33,641 bases of DNA from positions 1 through 33,641 of the IMG/VR virus record IMGVR_UViG_3300021961_000334. One strand, written 5' to 3'. The DNA is from a virus. A program made the position numbers and the translations under genes. Every line of letters begins with the position of its first letter. The stretch's first letter is position 1. The notes below the pieces were generated by a model. The model did no database searches. It had not been told where the DNA came from and was given only the letters and a program-made list of their open reading frames with translations. Of this stretch, positions 5,601 through 32,742 are shown one piece after another.

Positions 5601-8600
5601 GAGTGCATTTTCAGCACTGGTTGCAATCTTGATATTGTTATCATCAACCTTTACTGCATAAAGATTTTCACCAGGTAAGAATGTTGTATTAGATGCACCG
5701 ACAAAACTGGTTGTTGCAATTCCAATAGCAGAATTTGTGTTACCAACATGGTTGTATCTAATTTTTTCACCACTTACAAAGAAGTGATTTGGTATTTTAA
5801 TCGTGTTGGTCGTAACATCAACAATAGAACCATCATTTGCTTCAAAATACCTTTCAAAGATCTGCAGATTTTCGTGCTTAAGTTCAAATTCTCTCTTAAC
5901 GTCAGATTCTGTCCCGGTATAATCTCCAAACCCACTATTAATAGATCCATTTGTAAAATCTATTTCATTTGATAAAGTTGTATCTTCATTAAGGGACAAT
6001 GCATTCATGTATACATTGACTACGGTATCAATACTTGCATTAGGAGTAAATACGAGAGAGACTGTTCCAGCAGCAGATACTCTTGAACCAAAAGTTCCTA
6101 ATCCAGAAACAGTTTCTACAATACCAAATTCGGTTTGGTATGTTTCATAACTACTTAATGCATCAACATAATCATCAACAACAACAATCTCAGACATTTG
6201 GAATCTGGTGTTTGTTGTATCTGCAACTTGTACTATAAAGTATGCCGCATCATAATTGTCTGGATATTCTGCAACAGTGTTGATTCCAGGAGATCCAGAA
6301 GAAGTTATACTTGTTGTTTTTGCTTCAATTCTTGATCTAGTGAGATCAACAGTTCCAATACCAGTGAAGGTATCACTTGCAAGTCCAACTTGAATTGTAT
6401 TAATAACTCCAGTTGTTGCAATACCAACTGCTGTTGGAATAAAATCAACATTGAGAGAATCTCCACTAAAATACGCATGATATGTTCCAAGACCAGTTGC
6501 AGAGTATTCACCAAGATTTGTTGTCAGTCTTCCGTATTCCAGAAGTTCAATATTTGCACCATCATGAACAATATTGAGTTCTATTGCCTCATATTCTTCA
6601 TTTCTAGTGGTGTCTGGATTAATAGCAACTAAAATTTTAGCAGTAGTAAACGTATTTGCGATAGAAACAATCGTAGTAGTAACGCCAGAAGTTACTGGAG
6701 AACTTGCTGAATCAATAAGTGCGATTCCACCCAGAGATGTTGTTCCAATACCCAAGAAAACATCGTTTAGGTTGTATGATAGTAAACTTACATCATAATC
6801 ATTTACAGTATATCTTGTTGGATAGAACTGAAGTTGTCCATTAGTACCGGAAATAGCAAAATCAAAAGATCCTTGATCATATGTAGTTTCAATTCTTCCA
6901 TATTGATTTAAATATCCAAAAGATCCATCATGCAGCAAGTCAACAAGGAGTAACTGTCTTTGTGCAGTGTATCTCTTGTCTCTTACATACGTAATATACT
7001 TTTGGAAAGTAATGTCAGACAAACTAAAGGCATTGACAATACTAAATGGAGTAGATCTTGGGTTACTATTAAACTGACCTCCAAGATCATCAATGGAAAG
7101 AACTCTATTTCCTACAGACTCAAAATAATCAGTTAAAACTCTATTTGAGAAAATAATTTCATCTGAAACAACTTTTGAGTTTTGATTCAGATTATTTTCC
7201 GTAACCAGATCAAAGTCATATACACAATGCAAACTTGCAAATCCATCAAGATTATAAACAGAATCCAGATTTGTAGTATTTGTAGTAAGACCTACAATCA
7301 TACTATTGCTATTTTGAGTTTCTAACTGATAATCTGAAAACTTTTTAAATCCTAAGGTGTGGTTCAAACTCGCAACAGTTTCATTCCAAGTATCGTAAGG
7401 AATTTCTGATTTAAGAGAATATGAGAAGTTTTGATAGTAGAAACTATCTTGAATCTTTTGAAGTTCAAAGTTAAGACGACCAGAATCCTCTTGCCATCCC
7501 GTTATTACTTTTGATATTGGATTGAGACTTACATAAGATTCAAAAGATTTAATGGATGATGCAATTCCCTGCAACTTAGAGGTTGATCCTTCTATGATAT
7601 CTCCAACAACAAAAGAGTCATCGGATGAGACAGTTAGGGTGGTAATCTTTGCATCCCAATCATCAACAATTCCAGTTGCATTATCAGAAACTACAATTTC
7701 TCCTTTTACATAATTTCTTACACTTAAAGTAGATTCAAAAATTGGGAAATGTTTTTCTGCAAGTATTTTGCCCGATGAGTTTATCGCATCAAACTGACCT
7801 GGAAACTCTCCATTTTCAAACAATCCAGACATGCTATATGAAACACTTCCAATACCACCAAGATTTTCAGTGACTGCCGTTACAGTAAATCTATTGTAAC
7901 CATACTCTGCTGAATTATATCCCTTTCCGGTAGACCCAACACCAACACTGACATTTTCAACCAGGACTTTATCCCCAACTGCAAATGGGAAGGAGTTTTG
8001 AGTGCTGAATCCAACGGATAAGGTTGCTGTTGCAACTTCAGTTAAAGAATCAAATGTAATTGTATTAATTCCAACTCCAGCACCACTTCTTGTAGGAATG
8101 ATTACTGGAGAAACATTACTCATCCCCTTAGTATTCTCTAATATTTCAACATTGTTGCTTCCAAGAGTTACTTTCAGTGCAACGTCAGAAACTACTTCTC
8201 CGGTTTTTCCATCAAAAACAACTAGTGTTGGTGGGACAGAAAATCCTCTACCAAAAGAAGTGATTCCAACACTTTCAAAAGATGCAAGAGAATCAATTTT
8301 TATTACTTGTGGTAAAAGAATTGTTGGGTCTAAAGTTGGATCGGAGGGGAAAGTATATCCAATATCTTTCAATCTCATTTTTTTGAGAGATCCAACACTG
8401 GAACTCTTAGATTCTAAAATAGCACCAGATCCAGAGGAAGTAGTTACTGTTGTTATTCCTGGAAGTGAATAATAGTTTTTACCTGGATTGGTAATATTAA
8501 CACTTGCTATTGGACCATAAGTGTGAGTACAATCTGTTTCATAAGATATGATAGAAGTGCTACCATATGAGGATTCTTCTGGAACATCTTTTATACTATA

Positions 8601-11600
8601 GGTGAATGCATTTGTCGCACCAACACTTATTGTGTGTTTTCCATTATATACACTCTCCAATACTTCTAGCTTGGAACCAGATACCACTTCATTATCTGAT
8701 AAAATTTCAGATTTAACTACTGGGAGATCACTCTCATAAATTGGGGTTAGTTTGTAATATAAAGATCTTGGAATATTTCCATTGACTGTTAAAGTTGCAG
8801 TAGCACCAGATGTTCCTACTTTTCCAGATCTTGTTAATTCGAAGACATTGCTGTCTTTTGATTTATCCCATTCTTTGGTAAATTTTTCATCTGTGTATAA
8901 TTCAAACTCAAAAGCAGAGTACGTTGTTCCTTGTTTTACATAAGAAAGTGACCCATCAGATAAATCAAACGTTACTGTTGAATTCTTGTAAAGTTTAATC
9001 TGTGGATTTACTGGATTAATAGTTCCATACGATGCACTTGTTATTCCTACAACATCTGGTTTAGGTTTGACAGAATCGTAATAGGTGTTAGATAGTTTGA
9101 TAGTGTTGTCATCAACTCTAACAATATAGTACATACTATCACTGGAGAGTCCAACTGAAGATGAATCAGATGTGTGTATAATCTTATCTCCAGTCTTAAA
9201 TCCGTGAGATGCAATTGTTATTTCATTTGTAGTTGTATTAACCCCTGCAGTAACAAATCCAACTGGATTGACAACTAACCTTCTATTAAAATCGTTATAT
9301 TTTAATGTTAATGTTTTTGCATTTTGTGGGTTGACGTTTACAAAAACATTATGAAGTGGGCTAAGTCCATGAGTTTCTGCTGTTGATACAGTAACTAAGT
9401 TTCTCTTTACTGTGCCAGTAATAATATCATAGTTTGTTGTAAAACTATGCGTATCCCCCGATCCAACAGTTCTAAATGCTAAAGTCGTTGAAGATCTATG
9501 AGTGCTTGCAATACCAACAAAAGTTCCTGTTGTACCCAAACCAACTCTGACAGTAGCAATACCGATCAAATCTTCATCAATTTTGGCAACAAATAAAGTT
9601 TGTCCATCAGAGAGTGTAGTGCCGACACCTACATTTGTTTCGTCTTGTACTATTATTCCACTTCCACCAGTTCCTGAAGAATATGTAAGTTGATCTCCAG
9701 TTCTCAGGTTGTGATTTCTAATAAAAATAGTTTTTGTTGGAATAAACTTCTGAGTCAATCCAGCACCTGGATTTGAGAAAGTAATAGTTGTACCAATACC
9801 CACACCAGAAGTTGTTCCAAGACCAACAGACTCTGAAGGATCAAAGTAGATTTGTTTGTTTAATCTGTAAGAATAATCTGTCTTAAATCCGGCATTTATT
9901 TTTATTTTTCTCGAATCTTCATATACAAATTTTCCTATTGTATGAGAAGATCCTGTTGATCCATCTACCTCTCTAAGAACTCTAATTCTTGATGACAATG
10001 GGTCTACATTTAAGACTTTAATTCTTTCAGTACCAACTTTAAGAATATCATTCTCTCTAATATTTGGATAAGACAAGTCTCCAGTAACTCTAAAATAAGT
10101 TACTATTCCAGTTGTTGCTGTATCTCCAATAGCAACTCCTGTTGTTCCAACCCCAGCTATTGCTAATCTATTAGTTTGGATTCCTGCAGAATAAAATCCC
10201 TCGATGTTAGATGAAGTTGTTGATAGTCCAGAAATTGATATTGTATCCAGATTGATAAAGTTGTGGGGATTATCTGCAAATAGTAAATATTCTCCTGCAG
10301 ATTCTCCTGGATAGAATTCAACATTGTTAATAGTGCTGGAAGCAACACTAATGCTACTTACAGATCTTCCTTTCAGTCTACTAACCTTTGCATATACACT
10401 ATCACCTTTGGTTCCTTCATTGTCGAATACCAGAGTTTCTCCAACTCTATATCCACTACCACCAGTAACAATACCAATACTTTCAATCGTTCCTGGAGAA
10501 ACTGCAGTTATTGTTGCGGTTTGCTTTAACTCATTTGGTATATAAAGATATTCATATTGGGAATCACCCTCTATAAGATTATGAGGTTGTGTATTTCTAC
10601 GCCAACCACTACTAATATCAAATGACTCTAAGTTAGAGTCTGGAGTAAAGTTAAACTGATCTGGAACTCCCTTATAATTTTGTCCAACAATATATGGGAA
10701 TACTGGTTTACGATATTTTTCAAAAACTCCAGATGTTTCTGAAAACTTATCATTGATGGTTGTAAAATATGCATATGTACCATTTGGAAACTCTGGTGTT
10801 ATACAGAATCTACCATTGTTCTCATCAAGAATTGTATCATCAAAAACTTTATTGTGAGTGTAGTCTTCAATAAAAAATCCTTCTGGGAAAATTGATGTTG
10901 GTGGTCTATTTTCTTTAATATCTAAAGAATATCCCGATTTCATTTGTGAAATTACCCCACCATCCTTATTTCTAAATCCATATGGACCATAGATTGGATG
11001 TCCATCATAAGCAAATCCTAAAATTGGAGAATGCTTTCTTGAAGGTTCTTCAATTCCATTGACTCTTCTTAAATCCTTTTCTCCATATAAAACATTGCCT
11101 GATTGATCTGATGCATAGACAATTTCTCTAAGTTTTCTGGGAGCATACAAGTGAGAATACTGCAATCCAAAATCATTAGATTTTAATCCATTAACAACAA
11201 CACCATCATCAGAAGCAAAATATGGGTAATATTTTTCAAACAGATTAACTCTCCAAGATTGGATGTTTGCTTTAAACTCTGGAAGAATTCGAATAGATCC
11301 TGCTGGAATTACATCAATAGTTGTGCTATTTTGATCATATCCTGCACCAGGTTCTATTATTTTAACTGAAGTTACTGATCCGTTTTCTAAAACTGGTGTA
11401 AGAACTGCTCCAACACCACTACCATTGATTCTAAGGTCTGGAGTTGAAAGATATCTACTTCCAGTTTTTAGAACAATAACCTGAGATATTTTACCATTAA
11501 CAATAATTGGTTTTAGTTGGCACTCTGATCCAGAATCGATTGATATTTTTGGTTGTCTATCAAGATTGAGAATTTCTGAAGATCCATATCCAACTCCATT

Positions 11601-14600
11601 ATTTTCAAGATGAATAGAAGTTACAGTTCCTCTGACAATCGGTTGTAAGGATCCCTTGAACGTCTCCAGTCCAATAGAAGATATGCCGACATTACCTAAA
11701 ACGGATACAGTGATTTCTGGGTAGTTAAAGATGTGAGTTCCAACCCCAACAGAGGTCATATTAACATATTGTCTGGTTCTATAATAAAACTCTCTATCAG
11801 AAGAAACTCCGACCTGAGATAATTTAAAAGAGTCTCTATCTATTCTTGTTACATAATATTCCGTATCTGTAGTAAGACCAGAAACTGGGGTTCCATTGCA
11901 GGTGTATTTTACTTTTTCTCCAGACTTATAATCGTGGTTAGATAATACAACCAAGTTTGATGCTGTATTGATTCCGGTCAATGCTGCAGTGGTTCTTTTC
12001 TTATTTTCATATCCAATTCCAGATCTAGTAATATTAACAGATTGGATTACGGACTTCTTGCTTTCAGATTGTAAAGAGTGCTTACCAATACCATAGTCAG
12101 TCAAGAATACGGTATTAATTCCTGAAATTGCATCACCTTCGGTTTTGTGAAGACGAACTGTGATGTTGTCAAGAACAGAAACATAATAAGAAGAATTTGT
12201 AACTATTCCACTAATGCCATCTTGAAGTTTAGTTCTGTATATTACTTTTTCTGCATTTCTAAACTTGTGATAAGTCGAAAAACCAATTCTTGATTGAGTT
12301 GATGCTGTGCCAACAATAATATTAGCAGAAACTGCATCTGCGAAAAACTCTACCTCATGATTGATCAACTTCATGTTGACCTGGCCAATAGCTCCTGTGC
12401 CATTTCCACCTTCAATCTTTAACGTAGGAGTTCCAATAAAATCAAATCCAGGATCAACAACTCTTATCTCTTTGAATGATCCAGAAACTGCAAGATATCC
12501 AGTTGCTCCAGTTCCTACGGCATCATTGATTATTAAGTTCGGAATATTAATAACATCGATGTTAGTTCCTGGAGAGAGAACGTCAATACTATTAATTTTT
12601 CCGTATTTAATAATATCTTTTGACTTGTAGTTAAGAATCTCTACACCATTGACCAAGATACCTGTAAATCCTGGTTTCGTTTCGGAGGTGGTTTCGTTGA
12701 TTAATGGAGTGGATAATTTTCTAAGAAGTTTTTGAGGACCTAATGATTTACCTTTAAACTCAAATGGTCTTATAGTACTGTTAGCAACTGTAACTGCATT
12801 ATCTACGGAAACAAACTTTGAGTTGTAAATATCATCACTACTTCTTGAAAACTTTAAAGTAGAAGAATTTACTCTCTTAACAAAATATAGACCATCAGCA
12901 AACAAACCAGTGTCTCTTACTTGTCTGGTGGAACTATTACCAGAATCATCAATGTATGTTTTATTAATTAATTGTGCTTCATAATAAACAGCATCTCCTG
13001 TATAAAATCCATGCTCTACACCAGGAGATATTTCAAACTCATCTCCAACAAATGTCCCCGAAAAAGAAAATACTCTTGGTGAAACGTTCGTTGGTTCAGA
13101 ATCATAATGTGGTATTGATGGAGAAGAAATCAGATAATCCCCATTTTCATTTTTATATACATTGTTAACATCAGTGGAATATATTACTGCGGAAGGAAAT
13201 GTTGTTGAGGATACTTTTTGAATACTTCTTTGGATTTTATATGTTTGATTTGTATTTAATACACCTTGTCCCCTTATTTCAAAAGTTTTTTCTCCAGATA
13301 TTGATACAATTTTGGTTTGTACTTTAGTTCCATTAGAGAGAATAATATTTGCAAAATCTCCAGATCTAAACTGATTTGCCACATTTACAGTGACTTTGTA
13401 AGTGCTGTTTGAAGAATCTATCAGTTCAATTTTGCCGATTTTATATGTTGGTGCAACATTATAAAACCACTTATTTGTTTTGAAATTATTTTCACTTACT
13501 CCAAGCGTTGTTACATTAACTATGCCATTATTTCTCAGATTATTTGTATTCTTTGGAAGACGTAAATCTCCCAAAACAGAATTTATTCTTACCTCAATAA
13601 TCTCATCTTGATTTAAATTAGATCTTCCATAAGCAAAGGTATTAACCCCAACAACAGATCCATCAGATATGCCCAAATTTAAATTACTAACACCATAAAA
13701 TTGAGTTAGAGATTTTGAAGTATAAGATACTACACCAATACTGTTGTTTGAATAGTTAAAATAAAGTTCTCCTGTTGTTCCAAATCCAACGGTTGAATCG
13801 ACATCAAGAACTGTAGATCCAGCAGCAACTTGACCAATTACTCTTGTCGTTGGATTTGTTCTAAACTGACCATAAACAGATCCGTTTACTCTAATATCTT
13901 TATCATATCCACCATCAATACTGAGTTTATAATAGGTCTTTCCATACCCAACAGATATTTTTTCAACATCTGTAATTGGAGCATATGCTTTTTTTATATT
14001 TGTTCCAAACTTATATTCATCTTGATATAAAGTAGCATTCTTTAAATTTTCTGGATCTCCTTGAATTGCCTCTACTACTAATTGATTTACAATTTGATAT
14101 TGGGCATTTGATGGAGTAAACAGAAAATCTTTTGGTTTTACAATCTTTACTTCTTTATTATAAAGTGCTTTGAATAATATTTCAAAAGAAACATCCGTAC
14201 CCTTGCTCAGATAAAAATCTTTTGCCTGCTTTATAAAAAGATTTTGATTGAGGTCTGAAGTTAGTTGCTTGTTTTGCAATCCAGGAAAAACTTGATGTTT
14301 TGTTTTAAGTAAAAACTGCTTTAAAAATAAGCAACTTAAATTGGTAATCGTTGACTGATCCTTATGATCATCGGATTCAGTTTCTTTAAAAACTACTTCT
14401 TCTTTATTAATTTCACTTCTATATGAAGTTATTCCAACAAATCCCCTAATACATCCAGTGAAGGAAAAATCAGTTTTTCCTGTATAAGTTATTACTTCAT
14501 CATTTATTTTTAAAAGACCATAAGAGTTTGGAAATCCTATGGTTCCACTTGGAGACTCTGTAGGATCTACAGGAATCGTTGTTGCATCAAAATCAAGATC

Positions 14601-14813
14601 TCCTTGCAATACAACAGACTCAGTGAGATTTGTTGTATTATCTAACTTAATATAACGATCAATATTCTGAATTAAGTCAACAGGTCCACCTTGATACTCT
14701 TGTCCAAGATAATACTGCTTTAAAACTTCTGCTATTAGTGGGAAGTCCTCCCTTACAAATGTAGGAAGTTGATTTGCTACAATAGTATTAAACTGAACTC
14801 TGGTTTCTGTCAT
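2667..14813 (-). CDS. 7: Giant baseplate wedge initiator-position protein (gp7-like), 4048 aa
   Basis: A single uninterrupted frame of 12.1 kb sits between gp6 and gp8, where T4 carries gene 7 (1032 aa). The N-terminus (residues 1-60, with LPTFVREDFPLIAEVLKQYY) is the conserved phage-structural part. Around residues 1263-1287 is a YHYH-like motif (FAYDGHPIYGPYGF). At least six copies of an 80-110-residue module (about 580-674, 846-914, 951-1028, 1693-1791, 1861-1931, 3004-3091) share an HGFxTGDxVxY-type opening and a YYVxxVDxxTIKLS-type ending. About a dozen shorter GSGY modules (for example around 3784-3799) and many GVGTT or GIGTT turns fill the rest. This is beta-rich, extracellular-type architecture. 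Assignment to gp7 is mostly by position. It could combine wedge and host-contact functions. Confidence 0.8.
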   Translation of the reverse strand: MTETRVQFNTIVANQLPTFVREDFPLIAEVLKQYYLGQEYQGGPVDLIQNIDRYIKLDNTTNLTESVVLQGDLDFDATTIPVDPTESPSGTIGFPNSYGLLKINDEVITYTGKTDFSFTGCIRGFVGITSYRSEINKEEVVFKETESDDHKDQSTITNLSCLFLKQFLLKTKHQVFPGLQNKQLTSDLNQNLFIKQAKDFYLSKGTDVSFEILFKALYNKEVKIVKPKDFLFTPSNAQYQIVNQLVVEAIQGDPENLKNATLYQDEYKFGTNIKKAYAPITDVEKISVGYGKTYYKLSIDGGYDKDIRVNGSVYGQFRTNPTTRVIGQVAAGSTVLDVDSTVGFGTTGELYFNYSNNSIGVVSYTSKSLTQFYGVSNLNLGISDGSVVGVNTFAYGRSNLNQDEIIEVRINSVLGDLRLPKNTNNLRNNGIVNVTTLGVSENNFKTNKWFYNVAPTYKIGKIELIDSSNSTYKVTVNVANQFRSGDFANIILSNGTKVQTKIVSISGEKTFEIRGQGVLNTNQTYKIQRSIQKVSSTTFPSAVIYSTDVNNVYKNENGDYLISSPSIPHYDSEPTNVSPRVFSFSGTFVGDEFEISPGVEHGFYTGDAVYYEAQLINKTYIDDSGNSSTRQVRDTGLFADGLYFVKRVNSSTLKFSRSSDDIYNSKFVSVDNAVTVANSTIRPFEFKGKSLGPQKLLRKLSTPLINETTSETKPGFTGILVNGVEILNYKSKDIIKYGKINSIDVLSPGTNIDVINIPNLIINDAVGTGATGYLAVSGSFKEIRVVDPGFDFIGTPTLKIEGGNGTGAIGQVNMKLINHEVEFFADAVSANIIVGTASTQSRIGFSTYHKFRNAEKVIYRTKLQDGISGIVTNSSYYVSVLDNITVRLHKTEGDAISGINTVFLTDYGIGKHSLQSESKKSVIQSVNITRSGIGYENKKRTTAALTGINTASNLVVLSNHDYKSGEKVKYTCNGTPVSGLTTDTEYYVTRIDRDSFKLSQVGVSSDREFYYRTRQYVNMTSVGVGTHIFNYPEITVSVLGNVGISSIGLETFKGSLQPIVRGTVTSIHLENNGVGYGSSEILNLDRQPKISIDSGSECQLKPIIVNGKISQVIVLKTGSRYLSTPDLRINGSGVGAVLTPVLENGSVTSVKIIEPGAGYDQNSTTIDVIPAGSIRILPEFKANIQSWRVNLFEKYYPYFASDDGVVVNGLKSNDFGLQYSHLYAPRKLREIVYASDQSGNVLYGEKDLRRVNGIEEPSRKHSPILGFAYDGHPIYGPYGFRNKDGGVISQMKSGYSLDIKENRPPTSIFPEGFFIEDYTHNKVFDDTILDENNGRFCITPEFPNGTYAYFTTINDKFSETSGVFEKYRKPVFPYIVGQNYKGVPDQFNFTPDSNLESFDISSGWRRNTQPHNLIEGDSQYEYLYIPNELKQTATITAVSPGTIESIGIVTGGSGYRVGETLVFDNEGTKGDSVYAKVSRLKGRSVSSISVASSTINNVEFYPGESAGEYLLFADNPHNFINLDTISISGLSTTSSNIEGFYSAGIQTNRLAIAGVGTTGVAIGDTATTGIVTYFRVTGDLSYPNIRENDILKVGTERIKVLNVDPLSSRIRVLREVDGSTGSSHTIGKFVYEDSRKIKINAGFKTDYSYRLNKQIYFDPSESVGLGTTSGVGIGTTITFSNPGAGLTQKFIPTKTIFIRNHNLRTGDQLTYSSGTGGSGIIVQDETNVGVGTTLSDGQTLFVAKIDEDLIGIATVRVGLGTTGTFVGIASTHRSSTTLAFRTVGSGDTHSFTTNYDIITGTVKRNLVTVSTAETHGLSPLHNVFVNVNPQNAKTLTLKYNDFNRRLVVNPVGFVTAGVNTTTNEITIASHGFKTGDKIIHTSDSSSVGLSSDSMYYIVRVDDNTIKLSNTYYDSVKPKPDVVGITSASYGTINPVNPQIKLYKNSTVTFDLSDGSLSYVKQGTTYSAFEFELYTDEKFTKEWDKSKDSNVFELTRSGKVGTSGATATLTVNGNIPRSLYYKLTPIYESDLPVVKSEILSDNEVVSGSKLEVLESVYNGKHTISVGATNAFTYSIKDVPEESSYGSTSIISYETDCTHTYGPIASVNITNPGKNYYSLPGITTVTTSSGSGAILESKSSSVGSLKKMRLKDIGYTFPSDPTLDPTILLPQVIKIDSLASFESVGITSFGRGFSVPPTLVVFDGKTGEVVSDVALKVTLGSNNVEILENTKGMSNVSPVIIPTRSGAGVGINTITFDSLTEVATATLSVGFSTQNSFPFAVGDKVLVENVSVGVGSTGKGYNSAEYGYNRFTVTAVTENLGGIGSVSYSMSGLFENGEFPGQFDAINSSGKILAEKHFPIFESTLSVRNYVKGEIVVSDNATGIVDDWDAKITTLTVSSDDSFVVGDIIEGSTSKLQGIASSIKSFESYVSLNPISKVITGWQEDSGRLNFELQKIQDSFYYQNFSYSLKSEIPYDTWNETVASLNHTLGFKKFSDYQLETQNSNSMIVGLTTNTTNLDSVYNLDGFASLHCVYDFDLVTENNLNQNSKVVSDEIIFSNRVLTDYFESVGNRVLSIDDLGGQFNSNPRSTPFSIVNAFSLSDITFQKYITYVRDKRYTAQRQLLLVDLLHDGSFGYLNQYGRIETTYDQGSFDFAISGTNGQLQFYPTRYTVNDYDVSLLSYNLNDVFLGIGTTSLGGIALIDSASSPVTSGVTTTIVSIANTFTTAKILVAINPDTTRNEEYEAIELNIVHDGANIELLEYGRLTTNLGEYSATGLGTYHAYFSGDSLNVDFIPTAVGIATTGVINTIQVGLASDTFTGIGTVDLTRSRIEAKTTSITSSGSPGINTVAEYPDNYDAAYFIVQVADTTNTRFQMSEIVVVDDYVDALSSYETYQTEFGIVETVSGLGTFGSRVSAAGTVSLVFTPNASIDTVVNVYMNALSLNEDTTLSNEIDFTNGSINSGFGDYTGTESDVKREFELKHENLQIFERYFEANDGSIVDVTTNTIKIPNHFFVSGEKIRYNHVGNTNSAIGIATTSFVGASNTTFLPGENLYAVKVDDNNIKIATSAENALKSIPEVVDLESVGIGTSHRFIATNQNAKVIVALDNIIQSPIVSTAVTTSLSDQLTVLDNIVYFSGITSFFGSDLIKIGDEIMKIEGVGIGSTNAIRVRRPWLGTKIGTASTGDLVTKIVGNYNIVDNHLNFTEAPYGNTPIGSTTNPPDERDWTGITTSSSFQGRTFIRSGITNSSNESYYRNYIFDDISDQFNATKSEFTLKQNSSDVTGISTENAIILINDIFQAPGISDQYVLSESSGITSITFQGTNTTPLGPDVGISSYPRGGIIVSVGSTEGFGYQPLVSAGGTAIISGLGTIQSISIGNSGSGYRVGVQTVVNVGVGTSSTGVSNLEFIGTAAISGGHIVSVAITNPGSGYTSTNQPYVFFDAPLSYSDIALQYSSDSVTGFGTEATIDIVVGQGSSVIGFEIKNTGYAYGNGEILTVAIGGTTGIPTTSSYSGNEFQITIDEIYNDEFTGWSIGTLQAFDNIGEYIDGERKDFPLLQSGTQVSIVAAKGSKINVQDVLLIFVNDILQVPGDGYTFNGGSIITFTEALRVGDSVNILFYKGSGDADVVFRNVIETVKVGDTLQIINDPSIGQASSLSEDKRVVDQVKSTNIVGTNPYEGPGNVTDVTLERPVIWCRQTEDKFIDQIAVGKDRELYEPVINPSAYIIKSVGIGSTTIYVDTLRPIFNSQNENDTDLTFQKKVKFIPQESKTSAAATAIVSGFGTISSISISDGGSGYITAPTVTIGSTLQAVGLGTTAVGVSSITAGIVTTITLSNAGTGYTNTNPPPVLIAPPTHVEEEVSVNTYAGENGVIVGFGTTTVGIGTQLIFDVHIPYDSFLRNSTVAGTALTISSISVNDYFIIKNSNVGLGSTSVTSLDSSDNTVGVGTSFADNVYEVASAESISTSVSGITTYVRRLFVKVDNFTYGFSGITTSDYFGTFSWGRIDLTARSGLNSYTAYTQSGIGISEGTGISTSTMITRSNFLKFKNYIL

Positions 14814-22178: not shown

Positions 22179-22245
22179 GACTCTTTAACAATACAGGAAA
22201 TTGATCCCTGTGCTCTTTTAGTGTGACACTTAAACTATTGGCACA
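22174..22245 (-). promoter_or_regulatory. Stem-loop/promoter cassette, copy A
   Basis: Minus strand order: TGTGCCAATAGTTTAAGTG with TGTCACA (stem TGTGCCA/TGTCACA), AAAAGAGCACAG, then CCTGTATTGTTAAAGAGTC and AAAGG. The left part forms the last codons and stop of the upstream 54-residue gene. The right part is the conserved promoter-like block of the gene at 22129. Confidence 0.7.
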
Positions 22246-22394
22246 TCAATATAATTTTTGTAGAGAATACTCAGATAATCGAAGGGCCAAAGAACAGGAT
22301 TTTCCAGGAAAAAATCATCATCAGCATCCGTCAGTTCTGGATACTTTTCCCGACACATTTTCAGGATTTCTTGATTCGTAGGCATCAGATTCAT
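22230..22394 (-). CDS. Small acidic protein ending inside cassette A, 54 aa
   Basis: Translation from the ATG at 22394 gives MNLMPTNQEILKMCREKYPE, an Asp-rich LTDADDDFFLENP and WPFDYLSILYKNYIDVPIV. The last four codons (GTG CCA ATA GTT) and the TAA stop are the cassette sequence, identical to the end of the metalloprotease-like gene at 23185. No domain is recognised. The alternative is that the original C-terminus was replaced when the cassette arrived. Confidence 0.72.
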   Translation of the reverse strand: MNLMPTNQEILKMCREKYPELTDADDDFFLENPVLWPFDYLSILYKNYIDVPIV

Positions 22395-22403
22395 GATAAA
22401 CTA

Positions 22404-22595
22404 TCAAATGGTGGAAGTAAGATCGTTAATCGTTACAATCTCAACCTCAGTTATACTCTCATCGAAATGTTCTTCCCATTCTTCATACAATGCAACTGCA
22501 TCATCAAGTCTACCTTCTTCAGTCAAATACATGATCTGTGAATGTACTTGCTCCAGAATGTTGGCAAGCATTGTATCCTTTTGAATGTCAGTCAT
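22404..22595 (-). CDS. Small helical acidic protein, 63 aa
   Basis: The sequence starts MTDIQKDTMLANILEQVHSQ and continues LTEEGRLDDAVALYEEWEEH (a TPR-like helix pair in appearance), ending ITEVEIVTINDLTSTI. It is highly acidic. The ATG at 22595 is preceded by AACTC without a strong Shine-Dalgarno sequence. It lies 9 bp upstream of the 54-residue gene in the same operon. Function unknown. Confidence 0.75.
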   Translation of the reverse strand: MTDIQKDTMLANILEQVHSQIMYLTEEGRLDDAVALYEEWEEHFDESITEVEIVTINDLTSTI

Positions 22596-22616
22596 GAGTT
22601 AAATGAGTGAATGAAA

Positions 22617-22697
22617 TTACTTGAGAATCTGACGCACAATGAGCACTTGACTTGCACCCATGATGTAACCAATGAGAAAGAAGATTCCGATAGTCAT
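22617..22697 (-). CDS. 26-residue membrane mini-protein
   Basis: Translation from the ATG at 22697 gives MTIGIFFLIGYIMGASQVLI, then VRQILK and a TAA stop. The first 16 residues form a hydrophobic helix. Its ATG overlaps the stop codon of the upstream 61-residue gene (TAATG), so it should be translated by coupling. The rest of the 100-bp gap has no other use. I recall similar mini-proteins in cyanophages. Role unknown. Confidence 0.6.
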   Translation of the reverse strand: MTIGIFFLIGYIMGASQVLIVRQILK

Positions 22698-22882
22698 TAG
22701 AACTCAATCTCCCAATCTTTGTCGTTAGTGAGTGATACCCAGAAATGGTTTTTGTTGTTGACAGATGTTAGAAATACTCGATCACCTTTGTTCTGTTCAA
22801 TGATACATTCTGGGTTCGATTCCATCAGATTACAGAACCGATTCTTTGCCTTTTTGGACTTGGGTGATACAAATGCAGTCAT
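22697..22882 (-). CDS. Conserved small cyanophage protein, 61 aa
   Basis: Segments MTAFVSPKSKKAKNRFCNLM and NPECIIEQNKGDRVFLTS, then FWVSLTNDKDWEIEF. I recall this family from several T4-like cyanophages. It is basic at the N-terminus and beta-like in the second half, so a small nucleic-acid- or protein-binding fold is possible. The stop overlaps the start of the 26-residue mini-gene. Function unknown. Confidence 0.82.
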   Translation of the reverse strand: MTAFVSPKSKKAKNRFCNLMESNPECIIEQNKGDRVFLTSVNNKNHFWVSLTNDKDWEIEF

Positions 22883-22887
22883 GATTT

Positions 22888-23118
22888 TCAGGGTTCGTTG
22901 ATAACTTGAGAGAAAACTACACCTTGAGACTTACACCATGCTTCTGCAATTTCATCCTCAACAACAATAGGATCATCATCATGGTCCTCACTATCAACAA
23001 TCACACTGATAGTTTCAAACCCATTAGGAATCCAATGTGGTGCATCAGTAGGAAGAAAGAACTCCACACCAATCTCAATCTCTTTTGGGTTGGTTGTGTG
23101 TTGAATGAGTGTTTGCAT
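22888..23118 (-). CDS. Small acidic protein, 76 aa
   Basis: The sequence begins MQTLIQHTTNPKEIEIGVEF and continues WIPNGFETISVIVDSEDHDD (acidic patch), ending SQGVVFSQVINEP. No motif of known function. It is preceded by cassette copy B, with the AAAGGA of the cassette about 10 bp before the ATG at 23118, a normal Shine-Dalgarno spacing. It heads the operon continuing with the genes at 22697 and 22617. Confidence 0.75.
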   Translation of the reverse strand: MQTLIQHTTNPKEIEIGVEFFLPTDAPHWIPNGFETISVIVDSEDHDDDPIVVEDEIAEAWCKSQGVVFSQVINEP

Positions 23119-23128
23119 CGGTTGTGTT

Positions 23129-23200
23129 CCTTTGACTCTTTAAGAATACAGGAAATTGGGGACAGTGCTCTTTTAGTGTGACACTTAAACTATTGGCACA
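23129..23200 (-). promoter_or_regulatory. Stem-loop/promoter cassette, copy B
   Basis: Same layout as copy A, with the constant block CCTGTATTCTTAAAGAGTC and AAAGGAAC before the ATG. The stem-loop part (TGTGCCAATAGTTTAAGTG then TCACACT) is also the 3' end of the metalloprotease-like gene, which ends with VPIV and TAA here. Confidence 0.7.
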
Positions 23201-23541
23201 CATTGTTGTTCACAACTGTAGAGAAACTCACTATAAAGAACTCCCTCCATTCTGTATGCTTCTTCTTCTCTCTTTTCATCATCATATTCTCCTCTTTCAT
23301 TCTGAACAACATGGACAAGTTCGTGCAGTAATGTAATCACATAGTCAGTCTGATTCAGATTGTTATGAATCTGCACAAACTGTTCTTCACCATTCTCTTC
23401 TGTAAATCCAAAGGCATTGTCATCACTTAGGTCAGTGTGATAAACCTCAACATCTCGCGCAATCTCATACTTTGATGTAAAGAACTCATACACTTGATGA
23501 GTGAGATTCAGATCAGGGGATTGTCCAGAAACAAATAACAT
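23185..23541 (-). CDS. HELVH zinc metalloprotease-like protein, 118 aa
   Basis: The start is placed at the ATG at 23541 because a GGAGG Shine-Dalgarno sequence lies 5 bp ahead; longer versions would need a TTG start and run into the upstream gene. Residues 73-77 are HELVH (His73, Glu74, His77), followed by EEEAY at 92-96 as the possible third ligand. This is the HExxH zincin layout seen in ImmA/IrrE-like and SprT-like proteins, though it is far shorter than either. It may act on a host or phage protein early in infection. The last residues VPIV come from cassette B. Enzyme activity is inferred. Confidence 0.7.
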   Translation of the reverse strand: MLFVSGQSPDLNLTHQVYEFFTSKYEIARDVEVYHTDLSDDNAFGFTEENGEEQFVQIHNNLNQTDYVITLLHELVHVVQNERGEYDDEKREEEAYRMEGVLYSEFLYSCEQQCVPIV

Positions 23542-23542
23542 C

Positions 23543-23770
23543 TCAACCTCCAAACATTTCATCGAACAGATCACCCATCTCTTGCATTTCGTTGTGACGA
23601 TCGAGTTGATCACGAGCAGCAATCAGTGCTGCTTGCTTTGCTTTGATCTTGGACAATTCTTCGTTGATGTAATGCAAACGAGTGTTAATCTGGCAACGAT
23701 CCATACCATCAACGGTGGGCATTTCGTAAGTGTTTCCGTTGATGATTCGGGGTTGGTTGATGACAGTCAT
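23543..23770 (-). CDS. Small coiled-coil-like protein, 75 aa
   Basis: Start placed at the ATG at 23770 after cassette C. The sequence begins MTVINQPRIINGNTYEMPTV, then a long helix LHYINEELSKIKAKQAALIA (residues about 34-53) with Asp/Met-rich end MQEMGDLFDEMFGG. The helix looks like a coiled coil. Its stop TGA and the Shine-Dalgarno sequence of the next gene overlap. Function unknown. Confidence 0.75.
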   Translation of the reverse strand: MTVINQPRIINGNTYEMPTVDGMDRCQINTRLHYINEELSKIKAKQAALIAARDQLDRHNEMQEMGDLFDEMFGG

Positions 23771-23851: not shown

Positions 23852-24130
23852 TCAGTTCTCTACACTTTCAACCAAATCTTCCCACACTTCGGTATCATAA
23901 AGATCCACAATTTCTTCCTTCAGATCTTCCTCTGTGCAATCTTGGTATGCATCCATTAACAAATCATGGCACATCTGCACAAGGCAATCCATATCCATCC
24001 CGTCGATGATAAGGTTGCAATAGTTCTCTTTAAGAGTGAAAAGATCAGACTCGTTCATGATGTTAGGATCAGAAATGTGCGAAACGAAAGACATTCGTTG
24101 TTGATGCAAATACGTTTTGATCAGTGACAT
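23852..24130 (-). CDS. Hypothetical acidic protein, 92 aa
   Basis: It begins MSLIKTYLHQQRMSFVSHIS and is then dominated by acidic helices (DMDCLVQMCHDLLMDAY, EEDLKEEIVDLYDTEVW). It has no membrane span and no motif of known function. Highly acidic small proteins of this type in phages often mimic DNA or bind host proteins; this is speculation here. It follows the 78-residue gene by 3 bp and probably shares its transcript. Confidence 0.75.
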   Translation of the reverse strand: MSLIKTYLHQQRMSFVSHISDPNIMNESDLFTLKENYCNLIIDGMDMDCLVQMCHDLLMDAYQDCTEEDLKEEIVDLYDTEVWEDLVESVEN

Positions 24131-24466: not shown

Positions 24467-24610
24467 TCAGTTGAACTTTGCTGTCACTCCTATCACTTTT
24501 GCATTAGGATTGCGAGCAAGTGCAACTTCTCTTGCATCTTGGTAGTCTTTGGCATACACTTCCTCAGTGAAGACTTTGCCAGCAACATACAACTTAACTT
24601 CGCATTTCAT
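24467..24610 (-). CDS. Conserved small cyanophage protein, 47 aa
   Basis: Translation from the ATG at 24610 gives MKCEVKLYVAGKVFTEEVYA, KDYQDAREVALARNPNAK and a tail VIGVTAKFN. I recall this short beta-alpha-beta family (with DYQDAREVALARNPNA) in many T4-like cyanophages. Its start overlaps the stop of the upstream 62-residue gene by 4 bp (ATGA), so the two are coupled. Function unknown. Confidence 0.8.
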   Translation of the reverse strand: MKCEVKLYVAGKVFTEEVYAKDYQDAREVALARNPNAKVIGVTAKFN

Positions 24611-25006: not shown

Positions 25007-25348
25007 TCACCGAATGTAGAGGAAAGAACCGTATTGATCACAAGCATCAGGATGATCTGCCAGTTGATCAATATAGAAACGAATACCCTTCGCAGGTGCT
25101 TTAACCGATGCAGGTTTGTAACATGCACCAGTGGTATTGTCCACAAACATGTAAGCAGAACGACCACGTTGACGAACACCACCAGAGACCAAATAAGTCA
25201 TCAGTTTGGTGTACTTACGACCGACTTCTGCCTCAACTTGGTAATAACAAGAGTGACCAGATTCAATGGAATTAACTTTCCACTCATTGTTCAGCACTTC
25301 GATGAGTGCATCAGTCAAGAATTGAGGTTTGGTTTGAGTAATCGTCAT
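25007..25348 (-). CDS. Hypothetical protein, 113 aa
   Basis: The ATG at 25348 is preceded by the AAAGG of cassette E at normal Shine-Dalgarno distance; the longer upstream reading frame is merely translated cassette DNA. The protein has segments FLTDALIEVLNNEWKVNSIE, QVEAEVGRKYTKLMTYL, an Arg-rich GGVRQRGRSAYMFVDN and YIDQLADHPDACDQYG. I recall similar proteins in cyanophages; no enzymatic motif is visible. It heads the operon 25007 to 24467. Confidence 0.8.
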   Translation of the reverse strand: MTITQTKPQFLTDALIEVLNNEWKVNSIESGHSCYYQVEAEVGRKYTKLMTYLVSGGVRQRGRSAYMFVDNTTGACYKPASVKAPAKGIRFYIDQLADHPDACDQYGSFLYIR

Positions 25349-25358
25349 GGGTGCGATT

Positions 25359-25432
25359 CCTTTGACTCTTTTAATATACAGGAGATTGATGCCACCAGGG
25401 GGATTGGTGGACAGTTCAATCAACTGGCACAC
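25359..25432 (-). promoter_or_regulatory. Stem-loop/promoter cassette, copy E
   Basis: Second cassette version: CCTGTATATTAAAAGAGTC and AAAGGAATCG, preceded by CAGTT-GATTG-AACTG and by CCACCA/TGGTGG, both hairpin-forming. The right end encodes the last codons and TGA of the ligase-like gene (TGT GCC AGT TGA). Confidence 0.7.
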
Positions 25433-26307
25433 TGGTGTTTCGTATTGTTAAAGTTTGCATGAGAGAATTGCTCACGATTGACAAGTTTGAACATACCAAA
25501 CTCATTCATGCGAACATAACCCTCACCACCACATTGTTCGTTGTCGATGTATGCTTCGGGACCGTTATTGCGGCACAGGTAGAGCATGTCCTCTTTGATT
25601 GATTTGATCAGGAACCAGTAACTAATCAACAAAGAGTTGTTGAACGTTTCGGGCACAACTTCGTGTCCTTCACGAATACAAGCATTAAGTTGCTTCTTCA
25701 ATTCAGTTGCTTCCTTTTCATTCACGAAAGTAACCAACTGGGACATCTGTCGCGCAAAACCAACAATCTCAGAGAAATCTTCATCGAGTTGCCATGCACG
25801 AGGTTGCACGAACTTGCAGGTCTCAGTATCTTCAAAGATCTCCATGTCCACCATGTCATTGATAACATAGCAGTCCTTCATTTCATCATCAGTTGCATAC
25901 AATGTGTGTGGTGCAATGATAATGTTCTGATCAATTATTTCATCAAAGACATAAGTAATCGTATTGGGGCAAAAAGTATCATCACCACCAAACCCAATAA
26001 AATCACCTTGAACAATCCCGTCGAAATCAGGAAGGCAATCAAAACAGTGGTGTAAAATATCAGCAACAACCCCAGAATGGTTGCGATCAATGTCATCGTG
26101 CGTTTCATTGATCTTGATTAGTTTTTTGTTGAATACAGATTTGGTGCCACAGAAGAAATTACCAGTGGCAGGATTGGTGCCCCAAACAATAGCGGGAGAA
26201 CCGTCAATCTTCACGGAAAGATCACTCTCAGCAAGGAACCAATCCAGGACAGTGAGATCCCCAGTCAGAATAGAATCTTCGGGGTGTTGCAGATGTGTGT
26301 TTTTCAT
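25420..26307 (-). CDS. Ligase/nucleotidyltransferase-superfamily protein, 295 aa (DUF6267-like)
   Basis: Residues 33-36 are KIDG in SVKIDGSPAIVWG, the KxDG motif I of ATP-dependent DNA/RNA ligases and capping enzymes, with Lys33 as the expected adenylation site. A later EGYV (262-265) and FKLV (273-276) fit motifs IV and V of the same superfamily. The middle (GDFIGFGG, NTITYVF) is consistent with the same fold. I recall related phage proteins under DUF6267. Whether it joins nucleic acids or modifies protein is unknown. It directly follows the nuclease-like gene by 3 bp. The C-terminus QCAS is cassette E sequence. Confidence 0.72.
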   Translation of the reverse strand: MKNTHLQHPEDSILTGDLTVLDWFLAESDLSVKIDGSPAIVWGTNPATGNFFCGTKSVFNKKLIKINETHDDIDRNHSGVVADILHHCFDCLPDFDGIVQGDFIGFGGDDTFCPNTITYVFDEIIDQNIIIAPHTLYATDDEMKDCYVINDMVDMEIFEDTETCKFVQPRAWQLDEDFSEIVGFARQMSQLVTFVNEKEATELKKQLNACIREGHEVVPETFNNSLLISYWFLIKSIKEDMLYLCRNNGPEAYIDNEQCGGEGYVRMNEFGMFKLVNREQFSHANFNNTKHQCAS

Positions 26308-26862: not shown

Positions 26863-26873
26863 GAGGTTGTGCT

Positions 26874-26897
26874 CCTTTGACTCTCTTAAGATATAGC
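26874..26897 (-). promoter_or_regulatory. Reduced cassette, copy F (promoter half only)
   Basis: The minus strand reads TATATCTTAAGAGAGTC and AAAGGAG. The TAA inside it is the stop of the methyltransferase gene. No stem-loop block is present, so the element is minimal or degraded and the gene at 26862 may start transcription inside the methyltransferase end. Confidence 0.5.
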
Positions 26898-27650
26898 ATC
26901 CATCAACGGATTGCAAGTGATAGTGTCCTGTTCGGCAACTGTCACACTCCCTATTCTTTCTTTTGCTTTTGCAAAATAGTCTGCATCTTTTTCAATGCCA
27001 ATAAAATTGCGATTACACTTAACAGCAGCAACTCCAGTTGTACCCGATCCCATTGTATTGTCCAGCACAGTATCACCTTTGTTAGTATATGTTTTGATAA
27101 GATACTCCATCAAATCTACAGGTTTTTGTGTAGGATGCAGACCTTTTTGCTGCTTGAACTTTAGAACAGTTTTAGGGTATCTTGAACCCTCAGGATTATC
27201 ACGATGCTTAGATTGTGCTTCACCATAAACCTCACCAATCTTTGCAGTATCTGACTTAAACCCACTGTAAGGAGTAGAATACCACATCTGAGGATTGTAG
27301 GTAGGTTTCTTCCTATAAAACACCAGGATGTTTTCATGACTCTTAAGAGGCATGACTTTGGCGTTCATAGGATTAGTTCCCTGAGGTTTTTCCCAAATCC
27401 ATTCATACTTAAGATTCTGAATGTTGGATGCTGCTAGTATAGTTGTGAAAGGTTGTGCAGCAGTGAATACCATTGCTGCGTTTTCTTTACAGATACGATT
27501 ATATTGTTCCCACAACTTATCCAATGGAATGATACTATCCCATTTGCAAGCAGTTGTACCATAGGGCAAATCTACCAGCAACATATCAACAGAATTGTCT
27601 GCAATAGTAGGCAGCAATTCCAGACAATCACCCAGCAGTAGATTCACCAT
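26886..27650 (-). CDS. Site-specific DNA methyltransferase (adenine-type), 254 aa
   Basis: DLPY at residues 27-30 is a variant of the DPPY catalytic motif IV. HPTQKP at 172-177 is followed by DNTMGSGTTG at 197-206, the S-adenosylmethionine-binding FxGxG-type motif I. With the catalytic motif first, this is the beta class of N6-adenine/N4-cytosine methyltransferases. It would methylate a specific DNA site and protect phage DNA or mark it. It overlaps the upstream nuclease-like gene by 7 bp and is followed by a second nuclease-like gene, so a restriction-modification-like role is worth testing. Motif DLPY favours adenine methylation. Confidence 0.88.
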   Translation of the reverse strand: MVNLLLGDCLELLPTIADNSVDMLLVDLPYGTTACKWDSIIPLDKLWEQYNRICKENAAMVFTAAQPFTTILAASNIQNLKYEWIWEKPQGTNPMNAKVMPLKSHENILVFYRKKPTYNPQMWYSTPYSGFKSDTAKIGEVYGEAQSKHRDNPEGSRYPKTVLKFKQQKGLHPTQKPVDLMEYLIKTYTNKGDTVLDNTMGSGTTGVAAVKCNRNFIGIEKDADYFAKAKERIGSVTVAEQDTITCNPLMDAIS

Positions 27651-28261: not shown

Positions 28262-28465
28262 TCACCCCCAGTTTTCCATCCATTCATCTAAAGTATAACC
28301 TTCACCCGTGCTAGTTTCTTCTACTAACTCTTCTAAAGTCATTTCTATCAAGTCCTCACGATATTCTTCAGTTGTCTGATCATTTTCAGGATCAAAATCA
28401 TCATGGCAGAGATAGTCCCACTCTGCACATAGTGCATCAATCAGTTGTGCTTTAGTGTACTTCAT
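28262..28465 (-). CDS. Small acidic protein, 67 aa
   Basis: It begins MKYTKAQLIDALCAEWDYLC and continues DFDPENDQTTEEYREDLIEM and TSTGEGYTLDEWMENWG. Strongly acidic and helical. Its ATG overlaps the helicase stop by 4 bp (ATGA), so it is coupled to the helicase. Similar acidic proteins are common in cyanophages; the role is unknown. Confidence 0.8.
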   Translation of the reverse strand: MKYTKAQLIDALCAEWDYLCHDDFDPENDQTTEEYREDLIEMTLEELVEETSTGEGYTLDEWMENWG

Positions 28466-30104: not shown

Positions 30105-30176
30105 GTTTGACTCTTTTAATATACAGGAATCAGGTGGCAGTGGTCAAATTAGTGGACAGTGATCTGAGTGTCCACT
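30105..30176 (-). promoter_or_regulatory. Stem-loop/promoter cassette, copy I
   Basis: CCTGTATATTAAAAGAGTC followed by AAACAACTGACACC before the ATG at 30093 (no clear Shine-Dalgarno). AGTGGACA and TGTCCACT (30169-30176 and 30151-30158 on the plus strand) form a perfect 8-bp stem. The stem spans the last codons and TAA of the 48-residue gene. Confidence 0.7.
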
Positions 30177-30295
30177 GCATCCAGGTTTTTCTTTACATGT
30201 TCTTCCCAGAAGATTGCGTCTTCAATCTTTAGAAAGGTTGCAGTTTGTTTTGCATAACCTTTCTTCTTTGGTTTGAGATAGTTCACTCGGTACAT
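30149..30295 (-). CDS. Conserved small cyanophage protein, 48 aa
   Basis: Translation from the ATG at 30295 gives MYRVNYLKPKKKGYAKQTAT, FLKIEDAIFWEEHVKKNLDA and VDTQITVH. I recall a cyanophage family with the same basic N-half and IEDAIFWE segment. It overlaps the membrane-protein gene at 30222 by 74 bp in another frame. The C-terminal VH and stop lie in cassette I. Function unknown. Confidence 0.72.
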   Translation of the reverse strand: MYRVNYLKPKKKGYAKQTATFLKIEDAIFWEEHVKKNLDAVDTQITVH

Positions 30296-30464
30296 CATTC
30301 CAGTGTCGAATTACTCCAGCAACAATAAAACAGTTAGTAGTGAGATAAGTGAAAAATATAACAGTCCGTACAATAGCAACGACATCTGATTCTTTGTCAT
30401 CTTTACTTGCCTTCTCTCCTATTGCCTTTGCCCACCATCGCCATGCATTTTTTCTTTTTGACAT
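30222..30464 (-). CDS. Single-span membrane protein, 80 aa
   Basis: It begins MSKRKNAWRWWAKAIGEKAS, then a membrane helix (about 30-52) with VRTVIFFTYLTTNCFIVAGV and a tail VIRHWNDVPSELSQ. I recall close relatives in cyanophages that end shortly after IRHW, so the final residues may be an extension. Its start lies inside the upstream 91-residue gene (46-bp overlap) and its end overlaps the 48-residue gene by 74 bp. Confidence 0.78.
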   Translation of the reverse strand: MSKRKNAWRWWAKAIGEKASKDDKESDVVAIVRTVIFFTYLTTNCFIVAGVIRHWNDVPSELSQTKEERLCKTNCNLSKD

Positions 30465-32270: not shown

Positions 32271-32347
32271 TTTGACTCTTTTAATATACAGGAGATCCTG
32301 GTGGAAGGGGGAAAAGGTGGTCAGTTCAACCACCGTCCACCTGGCAC
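32271..32347 (-). promoter_or_regulatory. Stem-loop/promoter cassette, copy J
   Basis: CCTGTATATTAAAAGAGTC precedes AAAAGCAAACC and the ATG at 32258. GGTGGT pairs with ACCACC around TGAACTG. The right side overlaps the end of the glycine-zipper gene. No Shine-Dalgarno sequence is visible. Confidence 0.7.
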
Positions 32348-32742
32348 CCCACCATGCTGCCTCCAACGATACCCAGAGGGATTGCCCACCAACGTCCATT
32401 ACCACGAGACAGAGCAGCACCTAATCCACCGCCAGCAATACCACCGAGCACAGAACCTTCAATGCAAGAGTTATCATCAACTCGTCCTACATCTGGTGTA
32501 TGACTATCATGAATGTGTCTTTCTCTCTGACTATTATAGAGTGAACTGCAAGGGATTCTTTTTCTTGTAGTTTTTACTCTACCATCTCTCCAGTTACCGA
32601 AGTCATCATAATAACCTGGAATATATCTCTCTACATTTCTATAGCAATTCTCTTCATAACGAACACTTCCATGCCTATGATCAGCAAATGCGGGAGCAGA
32701 TGTCGCACCAATTAAAAGTAATGCTGCAAATGCTAATTTCAT
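32326..32742 (-). CDS. Secreted or envelope glycine-zipper protein, 138 aa
   Basis: An N-terminal signal peptide (MKLAFAALLLIGATSAPAFA, cleavage after residue 20) is followed by a basic/aromatic part with Cys33, Cys65 and Cys93, then a glycine-zipper hairpin (GSVLGGIAGGGLGAALSRG, about 96-114, and PLGIVGGSMVGC, 122-133). Glycine-zipper 2TM domains insert in or associate with outer or inner membranes. I recall relatives in marine cyanobacteria. It is the only clearly exported protein in the window. A host-derived envelope factor is possible; its job in infection is unknown. Confidence 0.78.
   Translation of the reverse strand: MKLAFAALLLIGATSAPAFADHRHGSVRYEENCYRNVERYIPGYYDDFGNWRDGRVKTTRKRIPCSSLYNSQRERHIHDSHTPDVGRVDDNSCIEGSVLGGIAGGGLGAALSRGNGRWWAIPLGIVGGSMVGCQVDGG

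Follow-up and report, generated by a model that had tools for sequence, protein, structure and literature searches.

Unrelated genes of a T4-like cyanophage end in the same codons, which lie within a repeated promoter-like inverted-repeat cassette

The window, by which we mean the whole stretch of 33,641 nucleotides (33.6 kb) of IMG/VR record IMGVR_UViG_3300021961_000334, is a fragment of a T4-like cyanophage with its genes on the minus strand. Its closest isolates are S-SM2, Bellamy, SynMITS9220M01 and S-RIM8; contig 3300021962_003110 is a duplicate of the window and is not independent of it. A 4048-aa ORF (2667-14813, minus strand) occupies the gp7 baseplate position and contains many short internal DNA repeats. 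The analysis started from three genes (Table 1). Two of them, an orphan of 54 aa and an M78-like metalloprotease (PF06114; its start is most likely 23541 rather than the TTG at 23622), both terminate in GTG CCA ATA GTT TAA and thus in VPIV-stop, and are otherwise unrelated, as the first-pass annotation had noted. The third, described there as a ligase-like gene that ends in a cassette in the same way, does so through TGT GCC AGT TGA (CAS-stop); its identity as a ligase was not borne out; the family is DUF6267/phrog_455, and the protein has a KxDG-like motif.

The VPIV codons form part of an identical run of 36 nt, TGTGCCAATAGTTTAAGTGTCACACTAAAAGAGCAC, found at minus 22245-22210 and again at minus 23200-23165, which encodes VPIV-stop and runs on into what looks like a promoter core (TATNNT...GAGTCAAAGGA, followed by ATG). 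To the left of this run the adjacent 20 nt are only 15% identical between the two loci, and to its right the successive 20-nt blocks are 85%, 85% and 75% identical (about 60 nt) before identity falls to 30-50%. Such a run within a common frame of 75 nt is not due to chance. Eight cassettes lie in the window, along with one degenerate copy. C1, C2, C5 and C8, at least, contain the stop codon of the upstream gene, and in C3 and C6 that stop sits at the left edge. At 26872-26960, where the degenerate copy is located, the last ~20 codons of an N6/N4 DNA methylase gene (26886-27650, minus strand) seem to span GTGTGACAGTTGCC...AGGACACT, and the TAA of this gene seems to overlap the promoter-like core of the next one. 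A 49-aa ORF (30149-30298, minus strand) ends TQITVH-stop in C7 and overlaps the gene at 30222-30464 in another frame; in relatives there is a 64-aa ORF that ends likewise. No structured RNA of Rfam 15 matched the window at the gathering score.

Table 1. Cassettes of the window and the genes that adjoin them
Feature	Position	Strand	Remarks
Gene 3' of C1	21788..22129	-	Kyano_Gp96, PF23790
Cassette C1	22172..22246	-	inverted-repeat arms, TATTGT -10-like box, GAGTCAAAGGA leader
54-aa gene, no family	22230..22394	-	ends ...YIDVPIV-stop; last 4 codons and stop within C1
Gene 3' of C2	22888..23118	-	76 aa, no family
Cassette C2	23127..23201	-	36-nt identical run in common with C1
M78-like metalloprotease gene (PF06114)	23185..23541	-	ends ...QQCVPIV-stop; last codons and stop in C2
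Cassette C3	23781..23855	-	upstream gene 23852-24130 (DUF7326) stops at left edge
Gene 3' of C4	24134..24370	-	resembles a downstream family seen behind 22 unrelated upstream families
Cassette C4	24379..24453	-	stop of upstream 47-aa gene (24467-24610) falls outside
Gene 3' of C5 (MTITQTKPQFL...)	25007..25348	-	
Cassette C5	25357..25431	-	GTGCCA/TGTCCAC type
DUF6267 gene (phrog_455)	25420..26307	-	ends ...CAS-stop inside C5
Degenerate cassette	26872..26946	-	core GAGTCAAAGGA at 26883; methylase 3' end reads through
Cassette C6	28187..28261	-	upstream gene 28262-28465 (phrog_734) stops at left edge (TGATGTGCCA)
Cassette C7	30102..30176	-	perfect arms AGTGGACA/TGTCCACT
Cassette C8	32267..32341	-	upstream glycine-zipper gene 32326-32742 ends GCQVDGG-stop inside

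For a wider comparison we used IMG/VR loci that carry relatives of the three proteins or the pattern GTGCCA-N44..72-AGAGTCAAAGG, together with stretches of five named isolates; because the contig scan required GTGCCA, this sample is biased towards cassettes that bear it. A search with the core returned at least 324 unique and at least 288 non-redundant cassettes among the matches listed, the latter flanked by at least 85 upstream and at least 67 downstream protein families as delimited by single-linkage BLAST. Counted from GAGTCAAAG, identity profiles and information content place the cassette between about -63 and +11 (~75 bases): when neither flank is related, a pair of cassettes shows only background identity (0.25-0.28) until -63, and identity drops again after about +11, with an indexing flaw in the profile that touches only cassettes near contig ends. 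From left to right on the coding strand, the cassette consists of an outer arm (GTGCCA, GTGACA, GTGGACA or ACCAGT), a loop, an inner arm (TGTCCAC, TGGCAC, TGCACA or TGTCAC), a variable stretch in which a second stem is often possible, TATNNT, GAGTCAAAGGA and ATG. Among the 288 cassettes listed, the -10-like box reads TATATT in 134, TATTAT in 72 and TATTCT in 63, an ORF follows in 283, and the next ATG mostly lies 18-25 nt past the start of GAGTC. This fixed box, the leader and their spacing suggest that the cassette may act as a promoter; a -35 box that matches at 4 or more of its 6 positions is present in 26% of cassettes, compared with 11% of shuffled ones. The exact core had no match in bacterial genomes. 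In the window, Bellamy, Syn9, S-RIM8 and S-SCSM2R the cassettes are concentrated in the small-gene region upstream of gp25/gp6, and the Syn9 and Bellamy isolates show the same layout as the contigs.

A perfect stem of 7 bp or longer is found in 33% of cassettes and in 2% of shuffles and coding controls, and the mean fold z is -1.1 for cassettes versus -0.29 for controls. The stem is followed by a T-run in 72 and by an A-run in 80 of the 288 cassettes listed. The inverted repeats may be a terminator hairpin or an operator (binding site): folding had no bias towards the sense or antisense strand when the cassettes were checked for RNA hairpins versus DNA operators, and the tolerance of stems for G-U versus A-C pairs favours neither. 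Two alternative stems (outer with inner arm, or inner arm with a third site) can be drawn in the cassettes generally, for example in C5 and in that of locus L118; the perfect stem is one alternative in some and the other in others, and reaches about 15 bp in L118.

The upstream stop codon falls inside the cassette in 190 of the 275 listed cassettes with a recognisable upstream ORF, with peaks at the left edge (-66), at the TGA of GTGACAG (-61/-60), at GTTGA (-54) and at TAAGTG/TAGTGT (-50); stops at -62 to -36 are used by 51 of 86 upstream groups. Among the matches listed, CAS-stop ends at least five unrelated families and CDS at least three, and ELV, ASR and PIV are each the tail of at least two, where the PIV count comprises the 54-aa gene and one other family and the VPIV pair itself was read directly from the sequence. 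CAS-stop is always encoded by TGTGCCAGTTGA (31/31). In 25 DUF6267 genes the final three codons and the stop do not vary at all, the four preceding codons vary in residue, and codons -4 to -6 are synonymously different in about half of the pairs with the same residue. Frames 0, 1 and 2 of the in-cassette stops are used by at least 27, 22 and 17 families, respectively. With three frames in use, and with invariant end codons beside varying neighbours, what is conserved is therefore the nucleotide sequence and not a protein signal. A built-in three-frame stop in the arm region was rejected, as stops in all three arm frames are at the level of shuffles (1.18 versus 1.11 frames per cassette; all three in 1%).

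The first-pass annotation had proposed that homologues be aligned to see where conservation stops relative to the cassette, and in such alignments the homologous 3' ends of both the metalloprotease and DUF6267 genes diverge exactly at the cassette border. These two families provide the comparison with cassette-free loci; the relatives of the 54-aa gene all bear a cassette, the one other type being six near-identical contigs in which the protein ends DRTLVEVAQ in a different, diverged cassette. Metalloproteases with a cassette end in VPIV (only the window and its identical contig), VPHVLVAQ (three), CAS (three) or CASR (four), and those of eight cassette-free loci end in FTN, FTASN, FTAAN or KLQ; a cassette-free homologue ending in VPIV, which had been named as the case that would refute this reading, did not occur among the relatives collected. 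In the VPHVLVAQ relatives the metalloprotease is 97% identical, the arms are kept and better paired, the loop differs and the stop is shifted by 12 nt, so that with the change of loop and the moved stop the tail was free to change.

The tail of DUF6267 is CAS in 32 of 32 loci with a cassette. Among the 47 called cassette-free, 33 end in ANV and three in CAS; two of these three, L064 and L066, keep a bare arm, and the third (L067) is cut by the contig end. At least five changes of tail state are forced by well-supported branches (11 by parsimony), including changes among close relatives (CAS in L040 and ANA in L044; CAS in L041 and ANV in L043), and sister alignments of such pairs lose similarity at the arm. 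There are also DUF6267 genes without a promoter core that end in SAS (L080 and L082, where the core is degenerate) or CAN (L055 and L110). The CAN ends of L055 and L110 and the CAS ends of L064 and L066 are either footprints of cassette loss or ancestral ends that resemble the arm. Past the DUF6267 stop, L064 and L066 have an arm, TGTGCCAG(C/T)TGA, no promoter core and then a terminator-like stretch with a T-run; this bare arm is possibly the footprint of a lost cassette or of an insertion beside one.

We then compared junction pairs in which one flank is recently common (80% or more) and the other is unrelated. Where the upstream gene is the same and the downstream genes are unrelated (21 families), mean identity along the cassette is 0.91 in the left arm (baseline 0.58), then 0.82, 0.71 and 0.74, and 0.67 past the promoter, where it is not raised over the baseline of 0.62 (p=0.11). 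Where the downstream gene is the same and the upstream genes are unrelated, identity past the promoter is 0.83 versus a baseline of 0.62, and the left arm is slightly raised (0.68 versus 0.58, p=0.012), which may mean that some whole-cassette transfer or common ancestry remains. The left half thus tracks the upstream gene and the right half the downstream gene; the halves differ in history, and the points at which they were joined are within the cassette. This linkage, together with the switching of tails, supports the earlier suggestion of insertion or recombination at the cassette with an in-frame stop reused, and either a fresh insertion or a cassette-to-cassette crossover would fit the data. 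The further claim of a direct trace of module shuffling holds for the mosaic halves and the tail switching, but not for the cassette as its cause. At matched divergence, cassette-free junctions of the same loci change partner about as often, and higher turnover at cassettes was not found beyond a small excess in the family means of most classes, which is reversed in most pooled counts; the cassette therefore need not be the driver of exchange. It is a place of past exchange with a recognisable footprint, and a raised rate is not implied.

We suggest, with a probability of roughly 0.77, that the common C-termini are a by-product, at the coding level, of a conserved and exchangeable ~75-bp DNA cassette, at which genes have been joined anew by homologous recombination inside cassettes, presumably by the phages' own recombination. 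In this model the cassette begins on the left with two or three half-sites of the inverted repeats, followed by a putative phage promoter core made up of TATNNT and the almost invariant GAGTCAAAGGA leader, which includes the ribosome-binding site; its left 10-25 bp overlap the 3' end of the preceding gene. A gene that is open into the cassette would be ended by the first in-frame stop of the arm or loop, with the arm setting its last 1-8 residues; a crossover inside cassettes would then join the upstream gene and left arm to a new promoter and downstream gene, and unrelated genes would thereby keep identical tails. The odds seem to us slightly better than even that in Synechococcus T4-like phages the regulatory cassette serves as a joint and at the same time as the 3' end of protein genes, where recombination re-pairs genes and the arm supplies both stop and common tail, such that part of the viral proteome has C-termini dictated by regulatory DNA.

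The recurrence of downstream families behind many upstream ones, and the linkage of the promoter side to the downstream gene, could also be explained if the cassette and its downstream gene moved to gene ends as a promoter-gene unit (moron-like), with internal crossovers secondary. We consider this unlikely, as whole-unit transfer does not predict the strong linkage of the left arm to the upstream gene (0.91). Convergence, in which regulatory demands led each gene independently to a 3' hairpin or operator beside a promoter, with no exchange between loci, is less probable still; the half-sites are short, and loop and arm type differ in many cassettes, but the 36-nt run is identical at two loci, one downstream family stands behind at least 22 upstream families, and the junction mosaics, with their two halves linked oppositely, indicate that the halves follow the neighbouring gene and not the phage lineage. 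A protein-level explanation, in which several proteins evolved or took up a selected tail such as a degradation or localisation signal, would be consistent with CAS ending five families and VPIV two, but is very improbable and largely refuted by the use of all three frames of the same DNA, by the invariant codons and by the switch from VPIV to VPHVLVAQ between close relatives. Finally, although stop-overlapping inverted-repeat arms at gene 3' ends resemble gene-cassette architecture, site-specific recombination as at integron attC sites is the least probable explanation: the core motifs RYYYAAC and GTTRRRY show no enrichment (2% and 5% of cassettes, respectively) and never occur together (0/288), and the junction alignments suggest that break points are scattered through the cassette, not confined to a single fixed dinucleotide.

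The nearest known units to the exchangeable cassette that we favour are the promoter-early stem-loops (PeSLs) of T4-type phages, of which the cyanophage cassette is a variant that has idea and position in common with them. PeSLs, reportedly from work by Arbiol in 2010 and Comeau in 2014, are said to be small units of promoter and stem-loop that are repeated between genes of the hyperplastic region and to have been proposed as gene-exchange sites. The cyanophage cassettes likewise sit between genes of a hyperplastic region, carry a stem-loop or inverted repeat and contain the break points of gene exchange. Of 18 gaps of the same size in RB49, many show TTGACA, place the stem within the promoter spacer and have GGAG ahead of the ATG; the preceding gene usually stops (mostly with TAA) just before the unit, tails differ, and no cassette-derived common tails were seen in these gaps. 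The cyanophage cassettes differ in that their arms are upstream of the -10 box and not inside the promoter spacer, they have a weak -35 box or none, and the unit usually contains the upstream stop. Archaeal viruses have comparable layouts with different sequences: in HGTV-1 a conserved promoter-like region with an inverted repeat precedes most ORFs of one genome arm, and these inverted-repeat/TATA motifs have been likened to PeSLs (PMC3950731), and the class I/II intergenic repeats of halovirus HF2, whose host also belongs to a different domain, are 29-58 bp long and proved to carry promoters when tested, the text of that paper making no mention of stop-codon overlap (PMC8707807). Integron attC cassettes are alike in having a repeat at the gene 3' end where genes join, but their core motifs are absent here.

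A limited literature search found no earlier description of common protein ends that derive from such cassettes. The identical end codons of unrelated proteins offer a footprint by which past promoter-cassette gene exchange can be spotted in cyanophage genomes, and they caution against taking the C-terminal residues of these proteins, on which protein-level selection does not act, for functional motifs. The finding also extends PeSL-like shuffling to marine cyanophages. Only a few PeSL-like units were described in S-PM2, where they were judged too sparse to explain the acquisition under study (Puxty et al. 2015, PMC4503421); in contrast, Syn9, Bellamy, S-RIM8 and S-SCSM2R all carry cassette units.
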